DNA from: Yamagishiella unicocca
Taxonomy: Eukaryota > Chlorophyta > Chlorophyceae > Chlamydomonadales > Volvocaceae
Reading direction: 5' to 3'
Assembly (NCBI GenBank): GCA_003116995.1
Contig: BDSL01000064.1
Span: forward strand, 372,001 to 436,000
DNA: 64,000 bases
This document shows positions 38,824 through 50,129 of the stretch, piece by piece. A model generated the notes under the pieces. It was not told the DNA's origin. It did no database searches and was given only the letters and a program-made list of their open reading frames with translations. The position numbers and the translations under genes were made by a program. Numbering within the stretch: position 1 is the first letter of the stretch; each line of letters starts with the position of its first letter.

Positions 38824-39066
38824 GTTCAATGAGTAAGGTGTAAGTAAGGTTACACACGTCATTTGAAATCCTCACAGGCCGTGTCAAGTCTTAAAAGCAG
38901 CTCCTTACTGGACCAGACTGTACCGATGCCGGTAGTTCAGCGTAAAGTATCATATCCAGCAGCGCGCAAATATGGTTCTGACAGTCAGGGAACAGCCCGA
39001 CATGCGAAGTCTGCGTTCAACGGCTTACTAACCATGCCGGCCCATCCAGGGTCGCACCCAAATGCT

Positions 39067-39071
39067 TTACA
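39067..39071 (-). terminator. TGTAA polyadenylation signal of the helicase gene
   Basis: TGTAA on minus 73 bp after the helicase stop codon. Confidence 0.5.
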
Positions 39072-39143
39072 CAATATACACAAGAGGACGTCCTATGCCC
39101 CTGCGTCGCATGCAACCTGCCAGGAAAGCGACAGCTGGTCAGC

Positions 39144-42100
39144 CTAGCCGCGCTTCCTATCTGTGGCACCCTGCTTTCTCGCCTGCTGCGGCCGGCCCTG
39201 CTGCCGCCCCCCGGCGGCCTTCTGACCCTGCCCTTGGCTCTTCATCTTTGCGAGCTTCTTCCGCAGCCGCCCCGGCATGGGCTTGTACTTCTTCTTCGCT
39301 GCCTCGTGCTCGCCCCCCTCAGCGAAGTCGTCGTCGTCGCTGGCTCCTCCATCGCCCGCGCCCAATCCCTCCATTCCGCTCCCCCCTCCCACCGCAAGAG
39401 CCGTCTTCCGCTGCTGCAGCACCGACCTGCCGGCAGGCCCCCCCGACCTGACCTTGACAGCCCCCGGTTCGTCATCCGGCTCCGAATCCGACCCACTGTC
39501 CCGCGCAGCACGCCAGCCACCCCGGCCGCGGGCGGCGGCGGCGCCGCCGCCGCGTCCCTCATCGTCGCTGTCGCTCAGAAAGTCCGAATGCCGTACGGGG
39601 ATGATCGGCTTATTCCGAGTGGGCAGCCCCCAGGCTGACGCCGCCTTCGCTTTAGCCGCCGCCGCCGCAGCTGCCTTCTCGGCAGGTGCCTCACCGCCAT
39701 TGGCGCCCCCGCGGGACCCCGCCGCCGCCGCCTTCGCCCCGGCCTTGCCCTTGCCCTTGGCCCCTGCCGCCATCAGCGGCTGGTCCGGGTAGTATCCGAG
39801 CCCCAGCGGCCCCCGCTTGAACACGAAGCCCGCCAGGGCGCCAGTAAACGTCTTTGATGCCACGAACGCAGCCGGCCGCCCGCCGCCCGGCTGCTGTTGC
39901 TCCTGCATCGCTCGACGCTGCTCCTTAGTAGTGGGAACCATCTGGGCGTCACCCGCTCGGCCCTTCCGCGTCGCCTCTCCCGCACCCGCATCCGCGGCCG
40001 CAGCCGCCACCGCCTCCCGCCGCGCCTTCTTTCCAGCCGGCTGCCGCGCGCCGTCCTTCCCTCCGGCGCCGCCCCCCTCACCATCCGCCTCCGTCGCCGC
40101 CTTCCCGGCCTGCTGCCGTTCCTGCTGCTTCGACAGCTTCCTCTTCATCAACGTGGCAATCGCCAGCGCATCCCGGTGCCCCAGCCCCTCCAGGAGGTCG
40201 TCCGCGGCGCCCAATACCTCGTCCGCGAAACTGAGCCCATCGCCCTCGCGGGCAGCCGCAGAAGCATCGCCCTCGTCGTCGTCGCCCTCGTCGTCGTCGC
40301 CGTCATCGGTGGCGGCGACCCCGCCTTCTCCCATGCGCGCCGCCGCCGCCGCCGCCGCCGCGGCACCCTTGCTCCCCAGCTTCTGCTCCGCCACGCTCCA
40401 AGCCGCCGCGAGCGCCGCCAGGTTGGGGTCGACCGATTGCCCGTGCGTTTGGAGCAGCTCCAGCAGCGGGGGTGCCAGGGGGGCCTGCATGCCGGAATAC
40501 AAAAAACCGGTACAATATCACACCGGTAAGTAAAATATACGGTACGGTACGGTACGACAAAAGGGTATTGCTCAAGGGTATTGCCAACCTAATCTTGGGC
40601 ACGGGGGTTCAGGCGGGTTGAGTGTTCGTGCCCCTTCCAAGTCCGCGAGACACACGCTTCCTCAACGGCCCCAACCCCAAAACCCTGCTCCCTCAAACTG
40701 CCCATAAACCCTAAACCCTAGGTGGTTTCCCCGCCTTGAGTTTCCTCAGCGCCCAGCCGCCGCGCCCCTGCGCTGCACTGCACCCACCAGGTTGCGAGTG
40801 AAGAAGCTGTACGAATGGCCGTACGCGGCGAGGCGACCCGTACGGCCGACGCGGTGCACGTACGTCTCAAGACGCGTGGGGAAGTCGTAATTGACGACGT
40901 ACGGCAGCGACCGGATGTCGAGACCGCGAGCTGCCACGTCGGTGGCCACAAGCACCTGCAGGCGTACGGCAAGATGGAATGAGCGGCCGGGGCACAGCGG
41001 CGGGGACAGCACGGGGTGATGCGTTGCGAGTCAGCATATGAGTCAGCATATGAGTCAGCATATGAGTCAGCATATGAGTCAGCATATGAGTCAGCATATG
41101 AGTCGGCAGCCACTTCAGGACATCCAGCGACCCACTGCCGGAGCCGCGTGGTTTGGGGCTACGCGACCGTGCCTGCTGGGGAGGGAGCACCTCCTGAGGT
41201 CCTGACCCTCAACCCCCCTCACCCCCACACCCCCACCGTCACGGGTCTTCCTCGCAACCCGCCCACCGCCCCTCCAGCCCCCCGTGCCAGCCTCACCTGC
41301 GCCTTGCCGCTGCGGAAATCCGACACGGCCTGGTTGCGCTCCGTCTGCAAGTAAAAGAAACACCGAAAGAAGGGGCGGCCGGAGTCGCGTCAAGGCGGGC
41401 CAACCAACGAACCAGCCAATACGCTAACCTCCAACCAACCCGGCCAACCCGGTCGGTTTATCACAGACACCCGACCGAGCGCCGACGCGCCTGGGCGCCG
41501 AAGCACAATCGACGCCCGCGCACGTGCCGTACGGCGGTTGGCGCCCGCCCCCATCGCGCCTCGGCTCACCTGCGAGCGCTGCCCGTGCAGCTGCGCGACT
41601 TTGTAGCCCTCCCTGGAGAGCGCGGTAGCTAGGAAGCGCACCGCCTTGACCCGGTTGGCAAACACCAGCACCCGGGGCACGTTGCGGCAGCCGGCGGGGA
41701 TGGCGTCCCGGATGCGCCCAAGGTGTTTGAGTAGCTTGTCGGGCTTCTTGTGTTCGGCGCACACATGAACCACCTGCAGCAGGACCGTGGAGGGGCGAAG
41801 GGAGCAAAGGCGGGAGATGGGGGGGGGCGAGAAAGGGGGGTCGTACGGAGTGGTTGGCGTCGGTTAGCGTCGGTTGGCACGGGCTACGGCGTTGGGCATC
41901 ATGGCCTAACCAGGCAACGTGTGTCTAGACGTCACGCGAGTGGTTTCGGGTTGGGAGCTAGTGGCGGCGGTGGCGGGAGCGGCGGCGGCTGTGGGCTCAG
42001 ATCAAGAAATTCAACCAGTTGAGTAAATGTCCTCACATCTTCATCAGAAGCGCGGATAAACTCATTCGTCATCATCGCCCACGACTCGCCGCGGCCACCG

Positions 42101-45100
42101 CCGCACGCAGCCACCACCGTCTGTGTTATGCTCTCGCAATCGCTTCCGCCCCCCCGCTGCTCATGACGGCAAGACCCAAGCACCCCACCGGACCATGCAA
42201 CCCCCCCTAACATCCCTCGCTGCAACTTCTTCCCCACGTGTCCCCCGTCCCTCCCCAGCCCTCCCTCCCCAGCCCTTCCTCCCCAGCCCTTCCTCCCCAG
42301 CCCTCCCCTCACCTGAGTGATAGTGCGGCTGATGGCGTTGGCGCCGCTGGAGCCCACGGTCACCACCTCCGGCTGCCGCAGCCATATCGCAGCGGCAACC
42401 GCCACGTCAGAGGGCATAGTGGCGCTGAAGAGCATCACCTGCGGACGAGGGATCCCGCAAGGAGCGGCCGGGTCCTTCGCCCCGCCGTCCGCCTGCTGCT
42501 GCTGCGGCGGCGGCGGCGGACCCTTGCCCTTCTTCTTCTTACCAGCCTTGGCTCCGTCAGCAGGCGCGGCTGCTGCTGCTGCGGCGGCGGCGACAGCCTC
42601 GGCCTCGTCCGAGGGTTTCAGCAACATGCCGTACAGCCTATCCAGTTGAGGCTTGAAGCCCAGCGAGAGCATCTTGTCTGCCTCGTCGAGCACCAGGTAG
42701 CGCACGTGGCCCTGCATGGGGTGGGGCAGCGGGTTGCGGAGCATGTTGGTGCGTGTTGCCTCGTGGGACTGGGCTGGGGCCGGGGCGGGCGGGGGGTGGG
42801 GATTTTATAACAGAATCCGGGGGTGGGGGTTTTGCGACGGCACGAAGTGGTTTTTAGGTGACGGACCGACGGGGCTGTTAACCGTTGAAGCACTTAAAAA
42901 AGTAGCTACAGTGCTCCCCGCGGCATCACGACCCAGGGGACCACGACCCAAGGCACTCATTCGCACCTGTAGCTTCAGCTCCCCGCCATCCACCAGGTCC
43001 AGTACTCGCCCGGGAGTGGCCACCAGCACGTGCGGGTGCTTGCCAGCGAGCAGGGCAGCCTGGGGAGAGGGGAGAGGAGGTAACAACGCGTGGAGGCACG
43101 GCGGTGGGGTATGTTTAGAGTAGAGCCAAGCAACGCGGAATCAACAAGGATGGATGTCGAGGCGGCTGTGCGAAGGACGTGCCTATATCCGCTCCCAGTC
43201 CTCTTCCCTTCCCAACTTTCGGCTTCAGGTTCATCGGCCCCACGGCGCAACTCGCGCCCGTCGGTAGGGCCCGCTTTGGGTGTGTGGCAACTATAAACTA
43301 TAACCACCGCGAGAAGCGAAGAGAAGGCTCCGCAGATGTGCGAGTGTTGGACCCACATCCAGCTACCCATTTGGCGGCCTGCCGGCAGCACACAAGTGTA
43401 CGCACCTGCTCCTCGCGCGGAGCTCCACCGAAGACGCAGACCGTCCGTAGACCCGTCACGGCGCGAGTAGCCCGGCACTGACCGGCAACCTGCGGAGCTT
43501 GGATGGCGGCAGAGGCGCAAGAGGGCAGAGGCACTGCGGGGAGTAAGTGGCGCGATGCGGGGGCGGCGGCCACGGGTCGCGGGACGGGCTGGGCGGGCGT
43601 ATATCCGTGAAAGATTACTCCCCTTCACCGCGTCGCAGCTGTGTACACCAGGTGAGCGTAAGATGTTTTCGTCCTCAGCCAGGAGTTCCCAACGCATTGG
43701 AACGGTGCATGCGTCTGTGATGCTGTCGCCTACTCGATTGGCTCAGATCAAGAAATTCAACCAGTGTTTGTCCGTTGTCCTCATCTGCTAGATCAGCAGC
43801 GCGGATAAACAAATTATTCGTCATTGCCAGACCGGAAAGAGTGGAGTCTGCTGCCTGAGACGGACGCAGCTTCCGACAAAAGGGTTGTATCCAGACTAGA
43901 GAAAATTGCTTTGGGTTTGAAAACGCGCACGCCGTAGGAGCATGCATGGGACACGCCGCACAAGCAGTGGCTCAGATCAAGAAATTCAACCTTAGTTTGT
44001 TCTTTGTCCTCATCTGCTAGATCAGCAGCGCGGATAAACAATCTCGTCATCATAGCCACAGAAAGGGACAAGACAGGCTGATGGCGGGATGGCGAGGAAT
44101 CCCACGTAGGGACGAGCAGTGCACTGCAGGCGACCTCCCGCAAATCCTCATAGACCACAATTGTTGCGTGATGCATGACAGGCAGGGGGGCAGCCGGGCG
44201 CTCAACTAAAGGGAGTCACCGGGCACCGGCTCCCCTTTTTGGATCCTGGATCGCACCTGCTGCGCCAGTTCGCGCGTGGGCACCAGCACCAGCAGGATGG
44301 GGCCCTCGGGGTTGGTGGCGTTGGAGTGGCCGTCTGCCTGCCAGAAGCAAGTGAGGACATGGGGTGGGGTTTTACGTGGAAACGCCTCGACGCAAATAAG
44401 GGCCCTTTGTGCAACCGTGCAAACTAGTGCGGTGACGGAGCAGTGCAAGACTCCCGTTCGGACCTAGTGAGCAAACCCACTGAACAGGAGGCGGCGGCTG
44501 TGGGCTCAGATCAAGAAATTCAACCAGTTGAGTAAATGTCCTCACATCTTCATCAGAAGCGCGGATAAACTCATTCGTCATCATCGCCCACGACTCGCCG
44601 CGGCCACCGCCGCAATCCCCTAAGCGGTTACGTAAAATCCTGATAAGGTGCGACTGTGAGTCCCGCACCGAGCCGTACGGCAAGCAAGGTGTGCAGACAT
44701 AGCGCCGACGCGTACGTGCATGGGGTGATCTACATAACTGATTCCGAACGAGTCGCACCCGAGTGCTTTGTGCGATATGTACGGCGTGCTGCGTTCATCC
44801 CCATGATCAGCGCTATGCGCGCTGCGCAGGGGGGGTGGACGCAAGTGGTGGCTCGGATCAAGAAATTCAACCTTAGTTTGTTCGTTGTCCTCATCTGCTA
44901 GATCAGCAGCGCGGATAAACAAATAATTCATCATCGCCAGACCGGAAATAGTGGGTTTGTACGACAATCGCCGCCTGAGACGGACGCAGCTTCCGATACT
45001 CGGGTTGTTCCCAGGCTAGGGAAAATGGCAAGAGGGTTCAAAAAGCGCACGCCATAGGTAAATTATGCATGGGACGCGCAGCATGGATATAAGCGATGGC

Positions 45101-47437
45101 TCGGATCAAGAAATTCAACCTTAGTTTGTCTGTTGTCCTCATCTGCTAGATCAGCAGCGCGGATAAACAAATTATTCGTCATCGCCAAGTGCGGATGGGT
45201 GGGGTTCTGTGATTGATGCTACCTCACAGATGCTACTGCACAGCACGGCGGTTGAAAGGCGTCCTCACACTTTGCGTGGACCCACGTGTTCAGTAGTTTT
45301 TTGGGCATAAATGTCCTGAACCACAAACGTCAGGACATGAAGGGCGGGGCACAGCTGCCCCCGACGGGTGCAATGGATTCGTGTCATGCCCCTTCTTATG
45401 GATAGGGTGCAGAAATAGCTGCCAGTAGCCGGTGGCTCGGATCAAGAAATTCAACCTTAGTTTGTCCGTTGTCCTCATCTGCTAGATCAGCAGCGCGGAT
45501 AAACAAATTATTCGTCATTGCCAGACCGGAAAGAGTGGAGTCTGCTGCCTGAGCCGGACGCAGCTTTCGACACAAGGGTTGTATCCAGGCTAGAGAAAAT
45601 TGCATGGGATTTGAAAACGCGCACGCCGTAGGAGCATACATGGGACGCGCAGCACCGGACACAAGCAGTGGCTCAGATCAAGAAATTCAACCTTAGTTTG
45701 TTCGTTGTCCTCATCTGCTAGATCAGCAGCGCGGATAAACAATCTCGTCATCATAGCCAGAAGCAAAAAGGTAGGGTCGACGCCGGCCATGCACACGTAC
45801 GGACCAACGGTGTCTTATCCTGCTGGGCTCACCCCCGACTTTGTTTGGGAGTATGAGATTATGGCTAGTTGCTGACAAGTGGAGTTTAGGTCACAGTTGA
45901 TGTGCCGGACTTGCACCGTCAATTGGTGGCGATTGCTGAACCCTCTGTCTTCAAAGGGAAGTAGGGTGAAATAATGAGGTCGGTTCCTGGTGTTTGGAAC
46001 CAAAATGCACAATGTTTCGACCAATGGCACCTCTTGACTTCGGTTCGTGGGGTATACGGTCAGGGCCTTCGGGCCTTACGTCTGTAACAACTCAACAACT
46101 CAACAGCTTACGAGGGCTGCCGCGGGACCGCCCTCGAGGCACGTACGGACACGGACAGGCTTCAGGGCAGTTGCGTCACCGCGAGCCGGCGCTCAATCCT
46201 CCCTCCCCAAGTTTGAATCTTACCTGCAGTCTGACCAAGCCCGGTAGCAGGTACGCAAGCGTCTTGCCGCTACCCGGCTCCGCCACACCCTGTGACAGAT
46301 TCATTGGCCACACATAATTAGGCCGCAGGCAGCCGTGGGAGCGACCGTTAGGAAGGCAGTTATGTTGCAAACTAGGGCATCTTACGACGGCATTGATGTG
46401 GCCGCAGCTCAGCGAACCCGGGCAGCGTTAGGCGAGGCAGCTACGGCTCTGGGGTCCATTCTACATAAGTGTAACGGCAATCCTCTACCAAGCTATCGAC
46501 GGACCCCCAGCTATCGACCCGGAAGCAAGACGCACCTGCACATCCCGGCCAGCTAACGCGGGCGGCCAGCAGCGGTCCTGCACCGGAGTCGGCTCTACAT
46601 GGTGTTGCATGAGCATGCAGGCTTGCAGCAGCGCGGGGAACTGCTCCAGAGCATCTGTCTTCGCGCCGACTGGCAGCTTGCGCAGCGCCGCCTGCCGCGC
46701 ATTTTCAGCTAGGACCGCTGGGTCCAGCAGCTGTACAGAGGTAGACAGCCCGCCCGGCTTGCCCTCCTGGCCCTGCGGAACAGCGTCCGCGTCCGCAGCA
46801 GCGCGGCCAGTCTCAACACGTTTACGTTTCTTTTCCTGCTGCTTTTTTGAACCAAGCTGGACCTGCGGCTGTTGGGGCTCATCTGCGCCGCTTGTGCTTG
46901 CGCCTCGATGGGAGTTTGCTCGCGCGGCCGCCTCCTCAACATCGCTGTCCTGGCCGCCCTGCGGCAGAGCGCGCCACAGGACCAGGTAACCAACAGACAT
47001 GACGGCTCAAGGCACGGCATACGGTTTAGACTCGAGGATTGCGATGGCGATGCTGGTAATTGCGTGCGGCGGCGTCGCCGCCGGCCATGGACCCCATCAA
47101 TGGGACAGGAACACTGTCAGGAGCCCAACGCACCAGGCCATTCTCCTCATCATCGGCCCACTGTTTGTCCTCCTCCGTCAGCTCCGGCGTTTTGTAGCAC
47201 ACGCCTTGGCATAGCCGCCGAATCTGAGGGTTTCACGCCAGGGAGATACGTGAAACCAATCCCAATCCTGATTTGAGCCAACGGCACATGGTTAGCAGCG
47301 GGATTTGGTGTTAACAGGCTATGACGAACCTTCTTGCGCCGCCGCTCCCGCTGGGCAACACCATCTTTACCGACCGCCTGTCTTTCCTTCTTCTTACGCT
47401 TCTTGGCCGACTTTCGTGCGATGTAGTCCACTCCCAT
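39144..47437 (-). CDS. DEAD-box RNA helicase, probably nucleolar
   Basis: Twelve exons on minus: 47437-47330, 47223-47134, 46958-46536, 46289-46224, 44337-44257, 43489-43406, 43059-42967, 42711-42313, 41773-41570, 41344-41297, 40955-40788, 40484-39144; 1034 aa. Visible motifs: Q motif [10 protein letters not shown]-loop GSGKT (~213-217), PTRELA, TPGR, DEAD (324-327), SAT (411-413), [12 protein letters not shown] and HRVGRTGR (566-573). A 55-residue Ala/Lys/Pro/Gln insert sits between DEAD and SAT. The N terminus is Lys-rich; the 446-residue C-terminal exon is Ala/Gly-rich with acidic and basic tracts and the element [15 protein letters not shown] (~808-822), ending in a basic tail. These helicases remodel RNA using ATP; the basic/acidic tails and the snoRNAs in its introns point to ribosome biogenesis in the nucleolus (inference). 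Subfamily not resolved. All eleven introns are phase 0. Confidence 0.93.
41029..41107. repeat. GAGTCAGCATAT 12-bp tandem repeat
   Basis: Between six and seven near-perfect units in the helicase intron between exons at 41297 and 40955. Confidence 0.9.
41991..42082 (-). ncRNA. Box C/D snoRNA, copy 1 (intact)
   Basis: On minus: terminal stem GTGGGC/GCCCAC, box C ATGATGA (42075-42069), D' CTGA, and box D CTGA (42000-41997). The guide before D is complementary to AAGAAATTCAACC, and the guide before D' to GCGCGGRTAAAC, both in 25S/28S rRNA. Lies in the helicase intron 42312-41774, in sense orientation. Predicted to guide 2'-O-methylation. Confidence 0.82.
43738..43829 (-). ncRNA. Box C/D snoRNA, copy 2 (box C degenerate)
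   Basis: Same family. Box D CTGA is intact, box C reads ATGACGA, and the terminal stem is TGGC/GCCA. Both guide sequences are retained. In the helicase intron 44256-43490. Confidence 0.62.
43967..44059 (-). ncRNA. Box C/D snoRNA, copy 3 (intact)
   Basis: Terminal stem GTGGC/GCCAC, box C ATGATGA, D' CTGA, C' AGATGAG, box D CTGA, and both 25S rRNA guides. Same intron as copy 2, 229 bp apart. Confidence 0.82.
44500..44591 (-). ncRNA. Box C/D snoRNA, copy 4 (intact, identical core to copy 1)
   Basis: The core and about 40 bp of flank are identical to copy 1, showing recent duplication between two introns. Both boxes, guides and the GTGGGC/GCCCAC stem are present. Confidence 0.82.
44849..44939 (-). 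ncRNA. Box C/D snoRNA, copy 5 (box D degenerate)
   Basis: Box C ATGATGA is intact; box D reads CCGA. Both guides are present. In the large helicase intron 46223-44338. Confidence 0.58.
45097..45187 (-). ncRNA. Box C/D snoRNA, copy 6 (both boxes degenerate)
   Basis: Box C ATGACGA and box D CCGA; guides retained. Likely a decaying copy. Confidence 0.5.
45433..45523 (-). ncRNA. Box C/D snoRNA, copy 7 (both boxes degenerate)
   Basis: As copy 6: ATGACGA and CCGA with both guides. It shares a linker of about 150 bp with copies 2 and 5. Confidence 0.5.
45668..45759 (-). ncRNA. Box C/D snoRNA, copy 8 (intact)
   Basis: Box C ATGATGA, D' CTGA, C' AGATGAG, box D CTGA and both guides. The terminal stem is TGGC/GCCA. 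First of the array in transcription order. Confidence 0.8.
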
Positions 47438-47759
47438 TATGTACCCGTTAGACTACTGTTTGCACTATGTTGGCGTCCGTCTTCCGATATCACCTGGAAT
47501 ATTGGGACGTGACCTGACAAACCTGCGACATAAATATATCTGAAACAATGGTTATGTGTCGATTATGGCAAACGTCTGCACTCTGCGGAATGAATCCCTG
47601 GACGCTCGTCACAACGTACGATGCGTTGTACTCGGCTTATGATTACAACTTGCGAACTCGTTTCGCTTTGTCGGGAATTATAACGAGACCTTCATACCAT
47701 TTTCTAAACAATTTCCGTTACAGCGCTTTGGAGGCTGCCGAAAGGCCGCCGTTGCTGAG
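47438..47759. promoter_or_regulatory. Shared divergent promoter: helicase / selenoprotein W
   Basis: 322 bp between the two start codons, on opposite strands. Must hold both promoters and 5' UTRs. No core motif assigned. Confidence 0.5.
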
Positions 47760-48355
47760 ATGTCCCCTGTTACTGTCCATGTCGTCTTTTGTGGCGGCTG
47801 AGGCTACTTCCCGCGGTATCGCAGGTGTGTTAACTGCCATGTTTTTGTAGTATCTTGGTATCTGCAACAGTATGCGTGCACTGTCCTAACAAAGCCTCCG
47901 TCGAACAAACCTCCCAGTCTTGAGAATGCGTGCCGCCAGAAGTTCCCCACGGCTGACATCAAATACACGTATGAGGCCACGCCAAACGTCAGCGGTAAGG
48001 AATGCGCGTCTTCGTTGACCTTGTGAAGCCCGCGGCTTGCAGGAACGTGTTAAGTCCTTCCCGTAAAGTCCTTCCTAAAACAGCATACTGTTAAATGCGC
48101 TGTGTGTGGAAGGATACGACCTTTAACTTAACGCGTGCTTAAGTAATGGGCACGGTCACGTTGCCCCCGTCACCAGAAGACCGGCGCACTGCACGTTTGT
48201 GACGCGACCTGCACCGCTGTAACATCGTAGGCTTCTTTGAAGTCGAGGTGAATGGTGAGCTGGTCCACTCGAAGAAGGACGGAATGGGCCACGTGGATAC
48301 CGCTGAGAAGCTTTCGGCCATCTTGAGCAAGATCGAGGCCGCGGCGGCCAAGTGA
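47760..48355 (+). CDS. SELENOW: Selenoprotein W (UGA-encoded selenocysteine)
   Basis: Exons 47760-47824, 47918-47994 and 48231-48355; GT-AG introns with matching phases (2 and 1); 88 residues counting the UGA as Sec. The N terminus is MSPVTVHVVFCGGUGYFPRY: the first beta strand followed by the CxxU redox motif, with TGA at 47799-47801. Then SLENACRQKFPTADIKYTY and FFEVEVNGELVHSKKDG, typical of the SelW/Rdx thioredoxin-like fold; the true stop is TGA 48353-48355. Family length is about 85-90 aa. SelW is a small cytosolic thiol-selenol redox protein; partners are uncertain. The in-frame TGA is not a mutation: reading continues in frame through conserved sequence into two more exons, and a SECIS lies downstream. 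Confidence 0.93.
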
Positions 48356-48778
48356 CATGCTCATGGACAGCAATGTCAGTTGAATGTGGTTGCGGCAGCT
48401 AGGCCCTTCCTGGGCCTGTAACCGGTCCTTTCAGCTGGCTCGTGATATGGGCAAGCCATGGTGAGGCTGGGGGCGATGGGTGACATGTGGGTTATCGCGT
48501 TCAAGCCATCTACGTCATGTTAGGCTCCTTCATGGGGCTGCATGCCATGCCATTATGGCCTTACATACTGCCTAGGGATCCTATTGTGTAACACCGTTAC
48601 AGGGGGCCTTTTCAGGTGGGGCTCTGCAATAGGAAGGCTCTATCATCGTAGTTCACAGCTTCGTGCGACGTCCTGTACACGCATGCACCCTATATTCATA
48701 CACCCAACCCTACCCTTGGGAGTGTCTGTACGACGTGTCCTACGGTTTCACCCTTCCGCAGGGAGAAGGTTGGCGCTG

Positions 48779-48853
48779 ACGTCGGCGGTATGAGGGACAC
48801 GAGCTTTAACGGATGATGCATCCTGGGCTCGTTCCCGACAGCAGAAGCCACGT
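48779..48853 (+). promoter_or_regulatory. SECIS element (form-II-like)
   Basis: The 5' core ATGA is at 48790-48793 and the 3' core CGAC at 48836-48839, allowing the tandem G.A pairs. Between them helix II pairs GGA-ACGAGC with GCTCGT-TCC (one bulged C). The apical part has unpaired AA at 48808-48809, 13 nt from the core quartet, followed by a mini-stem GGATG/CATCC, the form-II signature. Lower helix I pairs ACGT-GGC with GCC-ACGT. It lies 424 nt after the stop and before the TGTAA at 48977, so within the 3' UTR. It recruits SBP2 and the Sec-specific elongation factor. Confidence 0.78.
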
Positions 48854-48976
48854 GCAACGTCAACAAGAGCCTCATGGGTTTCGCCCAAGTTTCTTTGCAT
48901 AATTGCCTGTGAAAATTGCAACAAGGCCGTCGACGGCCCTGTCTGTTAGCCGTACGACTGGCCTTGCTAAATTATT

Positions 48977-48981
48977 TGTAA
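48977..48981 (+). terminator. TGTAA polyadenylation signal of selenoprotein W
   Basis: TGTAA 124 bp after the SECIS; its position keeps the SECIS inside the mRNA. Confidence 0.55.
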
Positions 48982-50129
48982 AGTAGCCGTTACGCCGTGT
49001 CTAGCAGCGACCCGGACTCCAGCTGCACACACCTAGTGTGCAACGCATGATACGCCGGTCGGTAGTAGAAGCCGTTACAATGGGTCCCAAACTGTTGGTG
49101 GTTGCCTAAACCCTAAACCCTAGGCATGCATCATAAACACCTAATAGGCCAGCGGGCGTCAGCGCCTGCTGGCACAGCACCTGCCAGGACTTCATGCCAT
49201 GCAATGGTGGCAGTCCAGGGGGAACGTACGCCGCCATCCCAACCAAAACGTCGAAAGAGAAAAGCAACGGTCCCCCTGATTTTACTTTGGGTGCCAGCTT
49301 CTATGAATTCATGATTAAAAGGACGTTTGAAGCGTGAAGTTATATCAACATCTAGGCATTTTTGCACTCCTTGTGTCATACAAAGTTGTAGTAAAACTTA
49401 CAAATAGGCCATAACTAAAGTCCAAATAAAGTGATAGTGGCAACAAAAAGCGGAACGGTACTCACACTCAAAAAAGGCATTCAATCCACGTCCCGCCGGG
49501 TCGGTCCGCTCCGGGACCCGCGGTATCAGATTTTGAACATCTAGGTTGCTGACAATTACAACTCTATTAAGGTTCTTGTGAAATTTCGGTGAATTTAGGA
49601 CAGCTTTTGTGGAGAAGTAATTGGTGTTCCATAATAGGGGTGTTCCATGACAGGTGCCTCCACCTGTAAGCGCCAGTGCAGTGTCCTCTTGCGCGTGACC
49701 TCTTCCAAGTCCTCTGTCCTCTTGCAACGCGGCTGTTGCGACACAGCCTCACCAATGTCGGGTATGCGGCCACTTGTGTATGTAAGGTGCAAACAAGATC
49801 AGCTGGTCTTTAGGGTTGTTCGTTCGTGCGCCTACATCGGCGATTGCTTACAGCGAGCAAATACGAAACGCACATCGGCGACCTCTTTATACGCCGGTTA
49901 CATCACATGTAATCGGCTCGTAAACATTTTTTCGCGACTGATACCGTACGGGCCCCTGAGCTGCACCGTGTGTGTACGAAACACGTGGTGCTTCGTGCCC
50001 CGTGCTGCCCCGTGGTGCGCGGCGAGGTCCCGCCCTCCGCTTTGGGTTTCCTCCTCCGTCTGCTTTATCGTGTTAGAGGGGTTATTGAAACGGGTTTCTC
50101 GCCACCCTCACCCCCACTTCCACCTCCAG
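48982..50129. other. Intergenic, no gene seen
   Basis: Holds a minus copy of the 3' tail module at 49062-49098, AAACCCTAAACCC-like sequence at 49106-49122, and no supported coding region. Confidence 0.4.
49062..49098 (-). repeat. Dispersed 3' tail module, minus copy
   Basis: GCCGTTACAATGGGTCCCAA aligns with the reverse complement of the module (GTTACAGTGGGCCCCAGAC). Confidence 0.55.

Follow-up and report, generated by a model that had tools for sequence, protein, structure and literature searches.

Eight probable U36a box C/D snoRNA genes in three introns of a DEAD-box helicase gene of the green alga Yamagishiella unicocca

The U36 snoRNA of Arabidopsis is one of six snoRNAs that, according to passages of PMC8053127, carry two guides for sites 11–18 nt apart; it is assigned there to the mapped 25S rRNA nucleotides A2221 and G2237, and the U36a/A2221 duplex begins at guide position 4. 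In a review table, yeast Am2220 corresponds to Arabidopsis Am2221; Gm2237 is entered there for Arabidopsis, together with counterparts in tomato and tobacco and with blank cells for human and yeast (PMC11542601). The Ostreococcus column contains Gm2079, an entry that the accompanying text calls a prediction (PMC11542601). For 18S rRNA, a section of PMC8817022 lists Am619 for snR47, Am668 for human U36A/B, and Am621 for Arabidopsis U36. Most plant and Chlamydomonas snoRNAs are described in a part of PMC7671301 as multigenic families arranged in clusters. A passage of a survey from 2016 states that land-plant snoRNAs are without identifiable green-algal homologues except for U14 and snoR96 (PMC5122169). 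The Rfam match reported here argues against this statement, for U36a only.

Eight elements in a 64 kb window of the Y. unicocca genome (the whole stretch of DNA that was analyzed, 64,000 nucleotides) match the Rfam family RF01302 (snoU36a) with scores of 55.5–60.6 bits, compared with a cut-off of 45, and with E-values of 2.3e-10 to 5.7e-9 as reckoned for the window. Each match covers model positions 1–90, and all the elements are located on the minus strand, in the sense orientation of a DEAD-box helicase gene (Table 1). The matches coincide with eight elements that an earlier note on this DNA had placed here. Its claim that they belong to the box C/D class is borne out by the Rfam match and by the C, D′, C′, and D boxes and short terminal stem found in all eight, and its claim that they lie in sense orientation in three helicase introns agrees with the joined gene model. 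The length of about 92 bp given there holds as an approximation and not as an exact figure, as the elements measure 88 nt in two copies (c1 and c4) and 91 nt in six. There are two subtypes: c1 and c4 are identical to each other and 74–77% identical to the remaining six copies, which are 88–99% alike. The elements are very probably genes for U36a, a known box C/D snoRNA with a described function. A new snoRNA family was ruled out because RF01302 fits the elements end to end.

A search of the assembly (133,378,104 bases in 1415 contigs) with one U36a copy returned at least eight places, all of them in the helicase gene and none elsewhere. The RF01302 model returned the same places, at least eight, and none elsewhere among the 65 scored of 1152 first-look candidates; these whole-genome counts are lower bounds. 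Scanning positions 39000–48500 for further snoRNAs in Rfam with E-values up to 0.5 gave only four; each overlaps c1 or c4 and scores far below the cut-off.

Table 1 Positions of the helicase gene, its snoRNA-bearing introns, and the eight RF01302 matches in the window.
Feature	Position	Strand	Intron	Subtype	Length (nt)	Score (bits)	Remarks
DEAD-box RNA helicase host gene	39144..47437	-					12 exons, 1034-residue model
Host intron 4	44338..46223	-					holds c4, c5, c6, c7, c8
Host intron 5	43490..44256	-					holds c2, c3
Host intron 8	41774..42312	-					holds c1
U36a c1	41993..42080	-	8	1	88	58.5	C box AUGAUGA, D box CUGA
U36a c2	43739..43829	-	5	2	91	58.9	C box AUGACGA
U36a c3	43968..44058	-	5	2	91	60.6	
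U36a c4	44502..44589	-	4	1	88	58.5	identical to c1
U36a c5	44849..44939	-	4	2	91	57.2	D box CCGA
U36a c6	45097..45187	-	4	2	91	55.5	C box AUGACGA, D box CCGA
U36a c7	45433..45523	-	4	2	91	56	C box AUGACGA, D box CCGA
U36a c8	45669..45759	-	4	2	91	59.4	

The model of the host gene was built by joining exons by hand at GT-AG sites from 47437 down to 39144, and the length of every one of the 12 exons is a multiple of three. The product contains the domains DEAD (PF00270, E 2.3e-38) and Helicase_C (PF00271, E 4.6e-29). Among the best 120 of 6690 matches, the relatives that extend over the whole 588-residue query include one from Volvox africanus that is 73% identical and one from Gonium pectorale that is 69% identical, weaker relatives occur in other green algae, and the algal relatives are annotated as ‘hypothetical’ or ‘helicase 20-like’. 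The N-terminus agrees by eye with that of the relatives. In the Gonium model the exon that separates intron 4 from intron 5 is missing, and the Volvox carteri model starts inside exon 6, perhaps, as a guess, because the same introns are long there too. The best solved relatives, among the best 60 of 196 matches, are DBP2 and DDX17, and the earlier suggestion that the helicase itself acts in ribosome maturation is unsupported. In NCBIfam scans of two orthologues of the helicase, the best 25 models for each included none above its cut-off. The distances from the elements to the 3′ splice sites vary from 164 to 1331 nt; therefore, a fixed branch-point spacing is not a feature of this arrangement. 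Intron 10 of the gene contains a 12-base tandem repeat of 6.8 copies (GAGTCAGCATAT) at 41028–41108. A divergent neighbor gene of the selenoprotein W type is located on the plus strand at 47760–48355. Its first exon encodes MSPVTVHVVFCGGUGYFPRYR, with an in-frame TGA in the CxxU motif, and the protein, with exons joined by eye, matches Pfam Rdx with an E-value of 5.5e-14. Neither a SECIS element nor any other Rfam family matched positions 47700–49500 at E-values up to 1.

Two guide stretches, identical in all eight copies, give the elements their predicted targets. The first, GGTTGAATTTCTT, ends at guide position 4 upstream of the D box, from which it is separated by GAT, and the second, GTTTATCCGCGC, ends at guide position 3 upstream of D′, with two nucleotides between. 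With a conserved 25S stretch that is not the alga’s own, the D guide forms 13–14 base pairs that put position 5 opposite the equivalent of yeast A2220 in every copy. Pairing of the D′ guide with that 25S stretch, likewise not the alga’s own, extends over 14–15 base pairs including G-U and puts position 5 opposite the equivalent of yeast G2236, again in all eight. The yeast 25S numbering of both targets is anchored on pseudouridine 2258, the position of which we assume. When two copies were aligned to the RF01302 consensus, both guides of the family were found to be kept, and the guides of the other six are identical. The alignment of the eight elements that the earlier note had suggested, with both guides unchanged throughout and complementary to the conserved 25S sequence, upholds the claim of a double guide, and the same two nucleotides had been named there as targets. 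The predicted targeting is a known function of a known family, because Arabidopsis U36 is assigned to the corresponding sites, A2221 and G2237. The alga’s own 25S stretch was not found in the assembly by an exact 30-mer or by a 39-mer with up to three mismatches, most likely because rDNA is absent from the assembly. Exact eukaryotic 25S patterns had no match in bacterial and archaeal contigs or in viral contigs.

The variation among the copies is distributed unevenly. None of the 25 guide columns is variable, compared with three of 22 box columns and 25 of 44 in the rest of the core; the contrast between guide and remaining columns gives a Fisher p of 6.6e-7, which is no true probability because the copies are related. 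The D′ box CUGA and the C′ box RUGAGGA occur in all eight copies, as do the C and D boxes. The C box is AUGAUGA in five copies and differs by a single change, AUGACGA, in c2, c6, and c7; the D box is CUGA in five copies and, again by a single change, CCGA in c5, c6, and c7, so that a noncanonical C or D box is present in four of the eight. A terminal stem of four base pairs can be formed in all seven distinct rows of the alignment. Three of its pairs are invariant; at the fourth, six copies have U-A and two have G-C, a covariation that is not significant, since it concerns one pair in one of the seven distinct rows and was reached by 79 of 500 shuffles. Sliding the structure by +3 raises the covariation from 0.143 to 0.238, but then only 60.7% of the cells are paired, compared with 100%. 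Beyond the terminal four base pairs, long external stems are possible around c1 and c4 (41981–42105 and 44490–44614), with duplex energies of −44.9 and −31.9; those of the other six range from −7.7 to −20.7, all calculated for 25-base flanks without a shuffle control. Five spacers between copies were folded, and none contained an unusual conserved hairpin (z −1.2 to +1.1, 60 mononucleotide shuffles each).

From the family, the boxes, the invariant guides, the intronic location, and the shared blocks described below, all of which are read from the sequence, we infer the likely course of transcription, processing, methylation, and dosage. Each U36a would be transcribed within the helicase pre-mRNA and then released from its intron. 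Several units in one intron require cuts between them for their release, which would be the route in introns 4 and 5. Snu13/15.5K would bind the kink-turn formed by boxes C and D, and Nop56, Nop58, and fibrillarin would complete the particle. The guide before D would then direct 2′-O-methylation to the 25S A that corresponds to yeast A2220; the D′ guide would direct it to the counterpart of yeast G2236, a G sixteen nucleotides from the A site. As to their origin, stretches of intron would have been duplicated inside the gene, and the most likely use of the copies is dosage. We hold this explanation as a whole, intronic snoRNA genes that guide both 25S methylations and were copied by segmental duplication, with high confidence.

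That the elements are repeated intron filler with a chance resemblance to a snoRNA is so improbable that it was ruled out: the Rfam E-values are at most 5.7e-9 in all eight copies, the guides are invariant, and in c3, the sole copy tested, the longest run complementary to rRNA reaches 15, a length not attained in any of 500 mononucleotide shuffles, which gave 13 at most. Whether every copy works is a closer matter. Box C was mapped as R-U-G1b-A2b-U3b-G4b-A and box D as C4n-U3n-G2n-A1n, a mapping of our own that agrees with sequences in a part of PMC5579392. The 3b·3n pair, which comes after the two sheared G-A pairs, is U-U in c1, c3, c4, and c8, C-U in c2, U-C in c5, and C-C in c6 and c7. Copies c2, c5, c6, and c7 could be decaying paralogues that are alike through recent duplication or conversion and not through use, as their changes hit the presumed U-U pair, and archaeal box C/D kink-turns strongly favor U-U at this place, a human plot being said to be similar in the passage concerned (PMC5689011). 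However, these four copies have kept both guides and the D′ box unchanged while other columns vary, and the D box of the Rfam consensus is itself noncanonical (AUGA in our reading), which indicates that the family tolerates change at this box. Decay of some copies is a real possibility to which we give less than even chances, and the simplest view of the 3b·3n changes is neutral drift. A functional role for them is far more doubtful. According to a section of PMC4382518, C at 3b permits folding in metal ions alone, a rule measured in another kink-turn, Kt-7, and C-G at −1b/−1n favors such folding in the part of PMC5689011 that deals with it. The U36a copies have C-G at −1b/−1n in our reading, and by analogy the kink-turns of the c2, c6, and c7 snoRNAs might fold before Snu13 binds, with another assembly order or dosage control as a consequence; this is a long shot. 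Control by m6A through the GAC of the AUGACGA boxes was dropped: the published GAC (PMC5579392) lies at 1n in the opposite strand, and the sequence on the D-box side is GAG in these elements. The effect of m6A on a kink-turn depends on its location and context, according to a passage of PMC6779385.

The origin of the copies can be followed in the blocks that the introns share. The c2–c3 block of intron 5, 327 nt long, is 93% identical to the c7–c8 block of intron 4, and the c5–c6 and c7–c8 blocks, both in intron 4, have 84% identity over 343 aligned nucleotides. The regions of c1 and c4, in introns 8 and 4, share 125 nt that are 100% identical, and no longer match joins the two introns there. 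These blocks are read here as the product of segmental duplication within one gene. If a mobile unit, such as a retroposed snoRNA, had instead carried the copies from intron to intron, an identical segment of 125 nt without a longer match around it would be natural; by contrast, the 327-nt block consists of two units together with their spacer, and the genome searches, which found at least eight places, returned no copy outside the helicase gene. Mobility is therefore improbable, and segmental duplication remains the preferred origin.

Other snoRNAs of the same genome provide a measure of the copy number. With 70 of 11282 candidates scored, the genome search found SNORD36 at one place; a scan of that locus showed another SNORD36 next to it. 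The two matches to RF00049 lie on contig C83, at 1501–1582 and 1679–1759 of the extracted region on the minus strand, 96 bases apart, and score 49 and 34 bits compared with a cut-off of 30. Judged by eye, the first of them contains a stretch that presumably fits the 18S site of snR47. Two U14-like places fall short of the RF00016 cut-off (64 bits), with scores of 50.5 and 48; the model may under-detect algal U14. Eight U36a copies are a high number compared with SNORD36 and the U14-like sequences, because those show two places each. Nevertheless, as the SNORD36 pair illustrates, local copies are not unique to U36a in this genome.

The elements belong to an ordinary kind of RNA gene that is already understood, in an arrangement that is somewhat amplified, and they leave views on how guide RNAs work unchanged. 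Mildly unusual are the two subtypes, the segments common to different introns, and the changes of the kink-turn pair in four of the eight copies. A U36a with both guides intact is now placed by sequence in a chlorophyte alga, and the locus is a compact case of snoRNA amplification across the introns of one gene. Assembly rules could be tested on the kink-turn variants as natural material. Intronic snoRNA clusters were reportedly described in Chlamydomonas by Chen et al. in 2008. The elements resemble the Chlamydomonas clusters in being clustered, in having multiple isoforms, and in belonging to a green alga (part of PMC7671301). SNORD36 and yeast snR47 (RF00049) are related to U36a through clan CL00051, which is common to RF00049 and RF01302. 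We take snR47 to guide the yeast A2220 site as well. A difference is that snR47, human U36A/B, and Arabidopsis U36 are listed for an 18S site, and Y. unicocca has its separate SNORD36 genes elsewhere, on contig C83. The closest system is plant U36, with which the elements share the end-to-end model match, both guides, both predicted 25S targets, an A-site duplex that starts at position 4, and, as in Arabidopsis, multiple gene variants. The D box differs, being CUGA or CCGA here and AUGA in the consensus as we read it, and so does the arrangement, in which three introns of a single protein gene hold eight copies.
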